From: Chloroflexota bacterium
GTDB taxonomy: Bacteria; Chloroflexota; Dehalococcoidia; DSTF01; JACRBR01
Length of the DNA stretch: 32,985 bases
Assembly: GCA_028872875.1 (NCBI GenBank)
Contig: JAGWOC010000033.1
Span: forward strand, 1 to 32,985
Direction of reading: 5' to 3'
Shown: positions 28,483 through 32,985 of the stretch, piece by piece
How positions within the stretch are numbered: position 1 is the first letter of the stretch
Layout of the letters: each line of letters starts with the position of its first letter
Made by a program: the position numbers and the translations under genes
Notes under the pieces: generated by a model
What the model saw: only the letters and a program-made list of their open reading frames with translations
Told to the model about the DNA's origin: nothing
The model's database searches: none

Positions 28483-29277
28483 TTGCATATTGTCGTCTGC
28501 GTGAAACAGGTCCCGGACTGGGATATCCCCCCCGCCAGCTTCAAGGTCGATGAGGCGGCGAAGAAGGTCGTGCCGCCGCCCGGCGTCGCGCCCGTCCCGA
28601 GCCAGTTCGATGCCATCGCCGTCGAAGCGGCCATGCGCATCAAGGACGCCGCCGCCGACACCAAGGTCACGATCATGAGCCTGGGCGCCGCCAGCGCCCG
28701 CGACGTCATCAAGCACGGCCTCGCGATGGGCGGCGACGAGGGCGTGCTGCTCGTCGATGACGCCTTCAACGACCTCGACAGCACCGGCACCGCTACCGTC
28801 CTCTCGTCCGCAATCAAGAAGCTGGGCGATGTCGGCCTCGTGCTCACCGGCCGACAGGCGGTCGACTGGGACCTCGGCGTTACCGGCACGCTGATCGCCG
28901 AGATGCTCGGCGCGCCGGTCATCACCTTCGCGAAGTCGGTCACGGTGGCCGGCGGCAAGGTCACCGTCGAGCGCGTGCTGCCCGATGCGTTCGAGACGGT
29001 CGAGGCGCCGCTGCCCGCGGTCGTCACCGTCAGCAACGAGCTTGGCGAGCCGCGCTACCCCAAGCTCCAGCAGATCATGGCTGCGGCCCGCAAGCAGGTG
29101 AACCAGTGGGGTGCCGCCGACCTCGGCCTCGACGCGGCCGCCCTGGCGCCGCGCCTCACGCTCGAACGGCTCTTCGTGCCGGTCACCGACACGAAGGTGG
29201 AGATCATGGAGGGTGACACCCCCGAAGAGCAGGCGGACGCGCTCGTCCGGCGCCTCCAGGAAGCGAAGCTGATCTAG
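28483..29277 (+). CDS. etfB: Electron transfer flavoprotein subunit beta
   Basis: A 264-residue EtfB. It pairs with EtfA to form a soluble FAD/AMP or FAD/FAD heterodimer that takes electrons from acyl-CoA and related dehydrogenases. Visible features: MHIVVCVKQVPDWD at the N-terminus, DAIAVEAAMRIKD, LTGRQAVDWDLGVTG in the nucleotide-binding region, and VVTVSNELGEPRYPKLQQIM, the family signature with the recognition-loop region. The start is TTG at 28483, with GGAGGGACG just upstream. etfA follows after 38 bases. Whether it is a simple or bifurcating ETF cannot be told safely from the sequence; no adjacent bifurcation partner or ETF-quinone oxidoreductase is present. Confidence 0.93.
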   Translation: MHIVVCVKQVPDWDIPPASFKVDEAAKKVVPPPGVAPVPSQFDAIAVEAAMRIKDAAADTKVTIMSLGAASARDVIKHGLAMGGDEGVLLVDDAFNDLDSTGTATVLSSAIKKLGDVGLVLTGRQAVDWDLGVTGTLIAEMLGAPVITFAKSVTVAGGKVTVERVLPDAFETVEAPLPAVVTVSNELGEPRYPKLQQIMAAARKQVNQWGAADLGLDAAALAPRLTLERLFVPVTDTKVEIMEGDTPEEQADALVRRLQEAKLI

Positions 29278-29315: not shown

Positions 29316-30278
29316 ATGGCTAACGGAGTACTGGTCCTCGCCGAACTCGCCGATGGCGCACCGGCGCCGATCACCGCGGAGCTTGTCGGCGCCGCGCAGC
29401 GTCTCAACGCCGGCCCCGTGTCGGCGATGCTCATCGGCTCCGGCGTCGAAGGCGCCGCCGCGCGGATCACCGGCGTCGAGACGGTGTACGTCGTCGACAA
29501 CCCCGCGCTCGCCGAGTACACGAACGACGCCTACACGCAGGCCGCTGTCGCGGCCGCGCAGCAGGCGGAGCCCGCCGTGATCTTGCTCGGCCAGACGGAC
29601 ACCGGCCGCGACCTCGCGCCGGCCCTGGCGTACAAGCTCAACACGGCCGCCGCTATGGATACGATCGCGCTGGAGATGAAGGACGGGCGGCTCCACACGA
29701 CGCGTCCGGCCTACGGCGGCAACGCCCGCGCCGTCAACAGCTTCGCCGCTGCGCCCGCCGTCGCCACGGTCCGGCCGAAGTCCCAGGATGCTGTCGAAGG
29801 CGGGAGCGCCGGCCGGGTGGTGAAGGTCGACTTCGCGGCGGGCGCCGTCCGCAGCCACGTCACCGCCCGCACCGTCGCCTCGTCCGAGGGCGTCCGGCTC
29901 GAGGACGCCGACGTCGTCGTCACCGGCGGCCGCGGGCTCGGCGGCCCGGAGGGCTTCCAGGGCATCGAGGAGCTGGCTCATCTGCTGGGCGGCGCCGTCG
30001 GCGCCAGCCGCGCCGTCGCCGACCTCGGCTGGCGCCCGGTGGCCGAGCAGGTCGGCCTCACCGGCAAGGTCGTCAGCCCGACCATCTACATCGCCGTCGC
30101 CGTTTCGGGCGCCAGCCAGCACATGGCCGGCTGCTCCGGCTCGAAGAACATCATCGCCATCAACAAGGACCCGGAGGCAAACATTTTCAAGGCCGCGCGC
30201 TTCGGCATCGTTGGCGACTACAAGACCGTGCTGCCGGCGCTGATCGCCGCCGTCAAGAAGGCGAAGGCGGGGGCATAG
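29316..30278 (+). CDS. etfA: Electron transfer flavoprotein subunit alpha
   Basis: A 320-residue EtfA. The N-domain ([13 protein letters not shown] to about residue 185) contains [19 protein letters not shown] and [11 protein letters not shown]. The C-terminal FAD-binding domain has [46 protein letters not shown] and [17 protein letters not shown]. The stretch after SQHMAG is CSGSK where many ETFs have MKDSK, a variation close to the flavin. GGGAG precedes the ATG. It is co-transcribed with etfB. With complex I and quinone-linked enzymes it ties beta-oxidation-type reactions to the membrane electron chain. Confidence 0.94.
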
Positions 30279-30340
30279 CCGCGGAGCTGAGGCGAGCGCT
30301 GGCGGGGTCCAACATCCAACATCCAGCCTCCACGTCCGCC

Positions 30341-30368
30341 TTGCCGCCATCCGTCCGCATGGCACACT
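30341..30368 (+). promoter_or_regulatory. Candidate promoter of the small barrel-like gene
   Basis: TTGCCG (30341-30346), a 16-base spacer and CACACT (30363-30368). The start point would fall at the ATG at 30375. The boxes are weak individually, but the -10 to ATG distance equals that of two other candidate leaderless genes in this window and no ribosome site is present. Confidence 0.35.
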
Positions 30369-30374
30369 GCCTGC

Positions 30375-30779
30375 ATGACCGCGCCCTTTACCCTTGACCT
30401 CCAGATTACGGGCGATGTCGTCGAGCGCCAGGATCTCCTGAACGGCACCCGCATCCTGACGCTGGAGGGCCGTAGCGCCGATGGCGCCTGGGTGCTGGCC
30501 GGTGGCCTGGCATGGAACATCGGGCGGACCGGCGCGCCGGCTGAAGGTGACATAACGCTGACCAGCATCGCCGGCGACGAGGTCTTCGCGACCGTGGCGG
30601 GCGGCGGCGTCCGCGAAGCTGCCGCCGATGATGACGCCGGCTTCCTCCTCGCCCTCGAATACGACGTCGATGGCGGCAGCGGCGCGTACGAGTCCGCGAC
30701 GGGCTGGCTCATCGCCGAAGGCGCCCTCGCCGGCGATGCCTTCCGTCTCGCGCTGCGCACCCACGCGCTTGCGCCGTAG
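30375..30779 (+). CDS. Small beta-barrel-like protein of unknown function
   Basis: A 134-residue protein made almost wholly of alternating hydrophobic/polar strands: ITGDVVERQDLLNGTRILTL, EGDITLTSIAGDEVFATVAG, GFLLALEYDVDGGSGAYESA and TGWLIAEGALAGDAFRLAL. The GGSGAYESATGWL segment recalls the G-GxYxxAxGxL motif of dirigent/allene-oxide-cyclase-like barrels; this likeness is weak. There is no signal peptide or membrane helix, and no Cys. It is between etfA and the GGDEF gene, with gaps on both sides, and probably has its own leaderless promoter. Ligand or partner unknown. Confidence 0.65.
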   Translation: MTAPFTLDLQITGDVVERQDLLNGTRILTLEGRSADGAWVLAGGLAWNIGRTGAPAEGDITLTSIAGDEVFATVAGGGVREAAADDDAGFLLALEYDVDGGSGAYESATGWLIAEGALAGDAFRLALRTHALAP

Positions 30780-30823
30780 CGCGTGTTGGTAGGACATTTG
30801 TCCCGATAGCCACACCGGCGCGT

Positions 30824-32692
30824 ATGCAGCAACGCCCAACGCTGGTCGATATGCATTCGGACGGAATACGTCACGAGGCGGCGCCGCGTATGGATGACCA
30901 GTTCCCGCTCACCGACCATCCACTCACCACCCCGGCGGCGCCGGCGCGCCCTTCCGCCCGCGCCTGGCTCGCCGATCTCCGCTTCTGGGGCACGCTCGTC
31001 CTCGTCGCGCTCTGCGTCATCGCCGTCGGCGCCGGCCTCTGGGCGACGAGCAGGCCGTCCGATCTGGAAATGGTCGCCACCGCGGCGACCCTCTCCGCCC
31101 TCATCGTGGGGGGCGCCGCGTTCTACCTGCGCGGCCGGGCCAGGGATCGCATCGAACGCGAGCAGGCTGTGCTCTTCGCGCAAATCGCCTCGCACGATGA
31201 GCTGACCGGCCTGTACAACTATCGCTACCTGCGCGAGCGCCTGCGCACCGACCTTACCGCCGCCCGCGCCAGCCGCACGCCGTGCTCGCTCGTCCTCCTC
31301 GACCTCGACAATTTCACGGAGGTCAACGAGCGCTTCGGCCACCTCGCCGGCGACCGCACGCTCGTCGCCGTCGGCGACGCGATGCGCGACGCGGTCGGCG
31401 ACCGCGGCATCGTCGCCCGCTTCGGTGGCGACGAGTTCGCCGTCGTGCTGCCCGGCTGTACGGGCGAGCGCGCGGAAGCGCTTGCCGCCTCGCTGGCGGA
31501 CGCGATCGCCGAGGCGTCGATCCACGCCACGCCGTTGAACAGCCACCTGCGCGTGCACGCGACCTGGGGCATCGCCCAGTACCCCGAACACGGCGACGCC
31601 GGCGACACCCTGATCGCCCACGCCGACAGCGAACTGCACGCCACCAAGGCGGGCGTCCTCGCCGTCAGCGCGCGCAGCGCCGAGCGTCACGCGCAGGACG
31701 TGTTCTTCACGATCGGCGAGGCGATGGGCGCGTCGCTCGATGCGCAGGAGACCCTGGACAACATCGTGCGCGCTGTTACCGCGGCCCTCAATCTCGACAC
31801 CTGCGCAATCCGGCTGGCCGGCGACACGGGGCAGGTGCTCGTCCGCTCGGGCTACGTCGCCGACGAGCACAAGCGGCAGGCGTACCGGGAGATCGAGTCG
31901 CGGGAGCCCGTCACGCACGACGAGCTCGTGCGCACGGGAATGCTCTCGCCGTCGGCCATCTACATCGACGACGTGAGGACCTCGGACCGGCTCGCCGAGC
32001 GCTATCGTGCACTTGCTGAGCCCGGCACCTGGCTCCTGAACGTCCCCGTGCCCGGACGGCGCGAAGGCATACTCACGCTGACGGCCCGCCACACCTGCAC
32101 GCCGCCGCCGCCCACGGAGCTGGCGAACGCCATCGCGCGCCTCGTCTCTGGCGCGCTCCGCAACTGCGACGTCTACGAGGCGGCGAGGCGCCAGGGCGAG
32201 CAGCTCACCCGGCTCGCCGGCGTTGGCGCCCTGCTCTTCGGTGACGGCGACTTCGAAGACCGTCTCGGCACGCTGGCTGCTGCCATCGCCCCGGTGTTCG
32301 ATGTCGATTCGCTGACCATCGATACGATCGACCCGGAGAACGCCCAGCCGTTCCGGCGCAACTTCTACGCGCGTCCCGTCGCAGGTGCGAGCCCCGAATC
32401 GGTCGCTGAGGCGGGGCGTGTCTGGCGCAACATGCGCCCGCAGCTCACCGACCCCGAGACCGCGCGCTTCCTCGCCGCCGTCACCGGCCCGCTGATTATC
32501 GAGGACGCGTCAGAGAACACCCTTGTCCCAGAGAGTGCGCGCCAGATCGCCCGCAAGACCGGCACCCGGACCGTCGCGATCGTCCCGATCGTGTGGCAAG
32601 GCAGGCTGCAAGGGCTTGCCTATTTCGGTAGCAGCCGCGTGCGCGCGTTCAGCGATCAGGACGTCGCCCTGATGGCGAGCGTCGCCGCGTAG
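30824..32692 (+). CDS. Membrane GGDEF-GAF-GAF protein, ended by TAG before its HD-GYP domain
   Basis: A 622-residue c-di-GMP signalling protein. Two membrane helices (about 54-74 and 83-102) precede a GGDEF domain (about 123-285) with DELTGLYNYRYLRERL, LVLLDLDNFTEVNERFGHLAGD and an intact RFGGDEFAVVLP (GGDEF at 201-205), so diguanylate cyclase activity is expected. The RxxD inhibitory site upstream of GGDEF is absent (DRGIVARFGG). Two GAF-like domains follow (about 294-445 and 460-622). The frame stops at a TAG (32690-32692) where the GAF helix continues in related proteins as VAAQIAPSL, and an HD-GYP domain follows in the same frame. ATGs at 30851 and 30890 are alternative starts; none has a strong ribosome site. 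GGACA-TT-TGTCC at 30792-30803 is a small upstream palindrome. Confidence 0.88.
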   Translation: MQQRPTLVDMHSDGIRHEAAPRMDDQFPLTDHPLTTPAAPARPSARAWLADLRFWGTLVLVALCVIAVGAGLWATSRPSDLEMVATAATLSALIVGGAAFYLRGRARDRIEREQAVLFAQIASHDELTGLYNYRYLRERLRTDLTAARASRTPCSLVLLDLDNFTEVNERFGHLAGDRTLVAVGDAMRDAVGDRGIVARFGGDEFAVVLPGCTGERAEALAASLADAIAEASIHATPLNSHLRVHATWGIAQYPEHGDAGDTLIAHADSELHATKAGVLAVSARSAERHAQDVFFTIGEAMGASLDAQETLDNIVRAVTAALNLDTCAIRLAGDTGQVLVRSGYVADEHKRQAYREIESREPVTHDELVRTGMLSPSAIYIDDVRTSDRLAERYRALAEPGTWLLNVPVPGRREGILTLTARHTCTPPPPTELANAIARLVSGALRNCDVYEAARRQGEQLTRLAGVGALLFGDGDFEDRLGTLAAAIAPVFDVDSLTIDTIDPENAQPFRRNFYARPVAGASPESVAEAGRVWRNMRPQLTDPETARFLAAVTGPLIIEDASENTLVPESARQIARKTGTRTVAIVPIVWQGRLQGLAYFGSSRVRAFSDQDVALMASVAA

Positions 32693-32985
32693 ATCGCGCC
32701 CTCGCTGCAGATCGCGACGCTGCACGTCGAGCTCAGGAACTCCTACGACGAGCTGAAGGAGGCGCACCTCGAAGCAATCCTGCGCCTCGCGTACGCGGCC
32801 GAGGCGCGCGACCCGTACACCGGCCGCCACCTCCATCGCATCAAGGCCTTTACCGCGGCGCTCGGCCGGCAGATGGGGCTCAGCGACGAGCAGCTCGAAG
32901 CGCTCAGCTACGGCGCCGTCGTCCACGACCTGGGCAAGCTCCGCATCCCCGACTCCATCCTGATCAAGGCGGGAGAGCTGAGCGA
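32693..32985 (+). pseudogene. HD-GYP domain separated from its gene by an in-frame TAG; runs off the window
   Basis: In the same frame as the GGDEF gene, 97 codons stay open to the window edge. They read IAPSLQIATLHVELRNSYDEL, a linker helix, then an HD-GYP c-di-GMP phosphodiesterase start: AYAAEARDPYTGRHLHRIKA, QMGLSDEQLEALSYGAVVHDLGKLRIPDSIL, split here into motifs (residue His-Asp in VVHDLGK). No ATG, GTG or TTG lies between the TAG and the HD-GYP core, so independent translation is unlikely. It is either a lost domain after a CAG to TAG change, a readthrough product, or a sequencing error. Confidence 0.8.

Follow-up and report, generated by a model that had tools for sequence, protein, structure and literature searches.

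The stretch of DNA analysed here (the window, 32,985 bp) is contig C99 of a 3.4-Mb draft genome in 234 contigs (G000), whose named relatives are Chloroflexi/Dehalococcoidia MAGs. Near its end, on the plus strand, lie an electron transfer flavoprotein (ETF) gene (28483–29277), beta-type by its position and single ETF domain, and an ETF alpha gene (29316–30278). They are followed by an open reading frame (ORF) with GGDEF and GAF domains that runs from an ATG at 30824 and is closed by an amber codon, TAG, at 32690–32692. The start of this cyclase gene is more likely the ATG at 30890, with which the sister frame's first Met lines up; the truncated ORF is thus placed at 30890–32692 (+) and comprises N-terminal hydrophobic segments (judged by eye), a GGDEF domain, and two GAF domains. 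Between the ETF alpha and cyclase genes, a 134-amino acid ORF (30375–30779, +) had no match in a Pfam search. A 624-amino acid open frame also runs antisense to the cyclase gene (30218–32092, −) and, the coding DNA being GC-rich, is probably a shadow ORF.

The sequence after the TAG stays open in the same frame from 32693 to the contig end (32693–32985, +), where it encodes a linker helix and the start of an HD-GYP domain. It goes on to about position 549 of a second contig, C134. The final 149 bases of the window (32837–32985, +) are identical to bases 1–149 of C134, and joining the two contigs on this overlap gives a frame of 854 codons, whose second stop, also TAG, falls at the TAA end of the sister orthologue. 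Exact 149-bp overlaps were also found at two other contig-end pairs (C208/C144 and C226/C61). Since contig ends of this assembly generally overlap in this way, the C99–C134 junction is credible. All three overlaps allow adjacent contigs of G000 to be ordered.

Domains on either side of the amber codon

A Pfam search was run with TAG decoded as Gln, and residues were numbered from 30824. The GGDEF domain (PF00990, amino acids 122–276, 31187–31651, +) has its catalytic residues: RFGGDEF (the GGDEF motif itself is encoded at 31424–31438, +), LLDLDNF, and VNERFGHLAGD are all kept, which include the GG(D/E)EF motif and the metal/GTP residues. Judging from its sequence, the truncated product may be active as a cyclase. 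A first GAF-like domain, seen as a second GAF_2 stretch, has approximate, inferred limits at 31712–32188 (+), and the second GAF domain occupies amino acids 476–625 (32249–32698, +; PF01590 and a low-confidence structure model), with the stop in its last helix. Structures predicted for the GAF2/HD-GYP junction of three sequences had a mean pLDDT of 46, a low confidence, and they suggest that residue 623 may lie within this last GAF2 helix, ahead of the HD-GYP linker.

Beyond the stop, the part of the HD-GYP domain within the window (HD_5, amino acids 658–718, 32795–32977, +) scores under the curated Pfam cut-off, being cut by the window end, and the remaining HD domain on C134 scores well over the Pfam cut-off. 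In the joined frame, the HD-GYP ligands E...H, HD...K, H, HH, and D as well as the GYP motif are all kept, in the motifs EARDPYTGRHLHR, VVHDLGKLRIPD, HPEYG, YHHERWDGSGYP, and VADVYDALT, every one of which lies past the stop. The two domains therefore do not share one uninterrupted frame in the window allele, the TAG at 32690–32692 standing between them, and normal termination would yield a GGDEF-GAF-GAF protein, probably membrane-bound through its N-terminal hydrophobic segments.

The fused gene in relatives and constraint after the stop

Orthologue-like matches were detected in four other genomes of the family, and none contains an internal stop. Amino acid identity to the window gene is 83% in G001, 57% in G002, and 45% in G004. 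The codon at the position of the stop is CAG in G001, G002, and G004, and CAT in G003; the window segment VAA-stop-IAPSL aligns with VAGQIAPSL, VASQIAPSL, and IAAQLAPSL, with CAG for every Gln. Among 13 homologues, the residue in this column is Gln in eight, His in four, and Arg in one, and a stop in none. Both G001 and G002 carry the GGDEF and HD-GYP Pfam domains within single open frames. A scan of named genomes added no close relative to the two already in the set. Fused orthologues from the same genus are those of JAKAMA010000107.1 (Chloroflexi bacterium WY5.bin150) and JADMII010000003.1 (Dehalococcoidia bacterium MAG008). They share the domain order, the catalytic motifs, and the absence of an RxxD I-site with the window gene, but have CAG (Gln) in place of its TAG and thus encode the whole protein. 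As in the window, an ETF gene pair precedes the orthologue in G002 (the MAG008 sequence), in which this upstream pair was checked.

Because the relatives are open through this codon, three of them with CAG, the fused GGDEF-GAF-GAF-HD-GYP state is ancestral, and one C-to-T change explains the stop. The window allele has what is expected of a truncated allele: a stop made by a single base in a frame that is otherwise intact and is open in relatives. These results bear out much of a first-pass annotation of this DNA, made from the sequence alone. Its claims that the TAG at 32690–32692 ends a GGDEF-GAF-GAF frame and that an HD-GYP domain follows in the same frame agree with the ORF map, the Pfam matches, and the C134 join, and the coding-like character that it saw past the stop is evident from the codon-position and substitution data below. 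Its view that Gln is usual at this position and that one CAG-to-TAG change is enough fits the CAG of the three closest orthologues and the Gln of 8 of the 13 homologues. The fused frames of relatives also support its statement that the mutation leaves the GGDEF and GAF domains without the HD-GYP domain. It had named separate genes in relatives as a finding that would speak against it; these were looked for, and the relatives proved to be fused instead. Its description of the product as a cyclase lacking its I-site holds only in part. An RxxD I-site at the canonical spacing upstream of the GGDEF motif was indeed not found (GDRG in the window and the sister, AARG in G002). However, since relatives also lack RxxD, its absence is ancestral and not due to the stop.

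Past the stop, the GC content by codon position is 0.71/0.40/0.94, a strong coding signal. Compared with the sister species, the HD-GYP part has 94% protein identity and a dN/dS of 0.12. The changes after the stop comprise 12 nonsynonymous and 20 synonymous on the branch of this genome, against 3 and 16 on that of the sister, a difference which is not significant (P-value = 0.12, Fisher's test). Without constraint from the split onward, the sequence would be expected to have gathered about 65 nonsynonymous changes on its own branch, where 12 were observed. A rough parsimony count puts the part of the branch spent without constraint at an estimated 0.13, with an upper bound of 0.28. Because the HD-GYP part is still constrained, the stop would be recent, at most within about the last quarter of the branch, or else false or read through. 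A preserved downstream sequence is equally expected under an error or efficient readthrough.

Stops within aligned GGDEF-like frames were also seen in other genomes of the class: a TAG in L028 (G058:C39:4082–4546), and one in-frame stop each in the GGDEF-like matches at G012:C184:73427–74059 (TAG) and G020:C23:1708–2253 (TGA). They give a hint that interrupted GGDEF-like frames are not rare in the class.

Decoding of TAG and competing explanations

In sampled stretches of the genome, 43 conserved genes with matching ends terminate in TGA (24), TAG (18), or TAA (1). The RF1 gene (prfA) is present and intact. A loss of RF1 was considered, since a TGA inside prfA would have lent plausibility to amber decoding, and was rejected: the TGA seen in the prfA match sits immediately ahead of the likely ATG, and one TGA is also present in the match of the sister. 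No CUA anticodon was found among 53 tRNA genes by ARAGORN and reading by eye; with the genome about 95.5% complete, it is improbable that a suppressor was missed. One odd tRNA that ARAGORN missed, at C213:56530, is, by eye, a Leu tRNA with the anticodon CAA. None of the features of an amber-suppressing or recoded genome, namely a CUA tRNA, loss of RF1, or disuse of TAG, was thus observed. TAG is an ordinary stop here, because it ends 18 of the 43 genes, RF1 is intact, and a CUA tRNA was not found.

The gene for RF2 (L088, G000:C218, near locus base 1497) still has CTTTGAC, the classical site of programmed +1 frameshifting, at which its coding frame switches. Downstream of prfA, at a distance of about 2 kb, the genome carries an intact GGDEF...HD-GYP paralogue of 855 codons (L010, G000:C11:12597–14855).

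The explanation that we regard as probable is a recent, ordinary nonsense allele: the HD-GYP phosphodiesterase is lost, and a potential cyclase remains together with its sensors. The most substantial rival to this explanation, though unlikely, is an error of assembly or sequencing, or else a minor strain variant in the consensus, the population having CAG and a normal fused protein. The 234-contig draft state of the assembly, the distance of only 293 bp from the TAG to the contig break, and a downstream domain that looks fully constrained, as if still translated, all fit such an error. Against it, a comparison of sampled genome stretches with G002 covered 57 conserved segments (19,195 residues), in which the focal stop was the sole clear interior one (four other in-alignment stops, inspected by eye, were put down to alignment edges or a doubtful frame). 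Since the 57 segments hold no other clear interior stop, the assembly is not generally error-ridden, although this comparison speaks to the assembly overall and not to base 32690. A second, CAG-bearing copy was sought and not found in the assembly, and the 149-bp overlap, being usual at contig ends here, is no local anomaly.

It is improbable that UAG is functionally read through at some rate by a near-cognate tRNA-Gln (CUG) or another tRNA, so that the cyclase-only protein is the major product and the two-way enzyme a minor one. The tRNA-Gln CUG is present and would put Gln back at this position, the frame stays open and constrained past the stop, and apparent full-length products of Shigella dgcQ and dgcN have been seen despite nonsense mutations (PMC11327459). 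The TAG, however, occurs in no relative, a suppressor tRNA was not found, and RF1 is intact. The 120 nt past the TAG fold modestly stably (z −2.2), but the preceding 120 nt, which end at the stop, are equally stable (z −2.7) and the fold is not common to the orthologues (z −0.95 and +0.56), so a readthrough RNA element was rejected. In programmed readthrough the stop is conserved among relatives and the sequence after it constrained, whereas here the three closest relatives have CAG. The proposal in the first-pass annotation that readthrough sets a ratio of two products is accordingly disfavoured by the lack of conservation of the TAG and by the intact RF1, and the amber suppressor tRNA that it suggested looking for is not among the 53 tRNA genes. 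We give little credence to a leaky amber at which termination efficiency sets the c-di-GMP balance, with mostly cyclase-only product and a small two-way share. A split into two working genes, with the HD-GYP protein made from its own downstream start, is still harder to credit. The HD-GYP part is intact with all its ligands, but no in-frame ATG, GTG, or TTG lies between the stop and the ATG at 32873–32875 (+), the first in-frame ATG past the stop. This codon is inside the HD domain, beyond the E and the H of EARDPYTGRHLHR that are the first metal ligands, and no clear ribosome-binding site accompanies it. A promoter-like site was searched for and not found, relatives are fused, and a separate downstream gene was rejected for want of a suitable start. 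Least credible of all is a reassignment of TAG to glutamine in this genome: relatives do have Gln at this codon, but TAG ends 18 of the 43 sampled conserved genes near the ends of their relatives, the second stop of the cyclase gene itself is TAG, RF1 is present, and a CUA tRNA was not found. TAG usage, RF1, and the tRNA set refute it.

A probable recent nonsense allele and its significance

In the nonsense-allele explanation, the ancestral gene would have encoded a GGDEF-GAF-GAF-HD-GYP fusion that was probably anchored in the membrane and is a putative two-way enzyme for c-di-GMP. A recent C-to-T transition in the sampled population would have turned Gln623 (CAG), in the last helix of GAF2, into an amber stop. 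Translation would then end at codon 623 and the HD-GYP phosphodiesterase would not be produced in useful amounts. The remaining product would consist of a GGDEF domain with intact catalytic residues plus the sensor GAF domains; it may still be a cyclase, or the gene may be a decaying pseudogene. We infer that the T at 32690 is real in the organism, where the allele is known from one genome of the species in a consensus assembly, and that the truncated protein is stable. Since about a dozen further GGDEF genes and about ten further HD-GYP genes are present in the genome, it is plausible that one phosphodiesterase domain could be lost without severe cost.

Among known systems, PmGH of Persephonella marina is a GAF-HD-GYP phosphodiesterase. 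Its structures (PDB 4mcw, 4mdz, 4me4) match the window sequence over the GAF end, the linker, and the HD-GYP start, and the 4mcw match spans the GAF2/HD-GYP junction where the window stop falls. PmGH differs in having neither a GGDEF domain nor a stop, whereas the window product lacks the HD-GYP part. An Escherichia coli YciR allele cut just after GGDEF has been reported to act as a cyclase (PMC10333796, a review). As in the window, a protein with two domains loses its phosphodiesterase domain by truncation and the cyclase stays; the lost domain of YciR, however, is EAL and not HD-GYP, and the effect reported for YciR is an expected one in the window. In Shigella flexneri, diguanylate cyclase genes have premature stops, and readthrough has been raised to account for apparent full-length products (PMC11327459). 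These are likewise nonsense mutations in c-di-GMP genes with readthrough as one possibility, but the Shigella stops precede GGDEF and have nearby Met codons, while the window stop follows GGDEF and has no useful start.

The window allele is thus most likely a further instance of documented truncations of c-di-GMP enzymes and not a new regulatory device. For draft genomes, it is mainly a caution that a lone stop in a conserved frame needs a read check before any mechanism is put forward. If the stop is real, a point mutation has cost a c-di-GMP enzyme one of its halves, and a two-way enzyme could thereby be shifted toward synthesis. It would then illustrate how second-messenger output can be rewired by a single base, but such truncations are already documented in enterobacteria.
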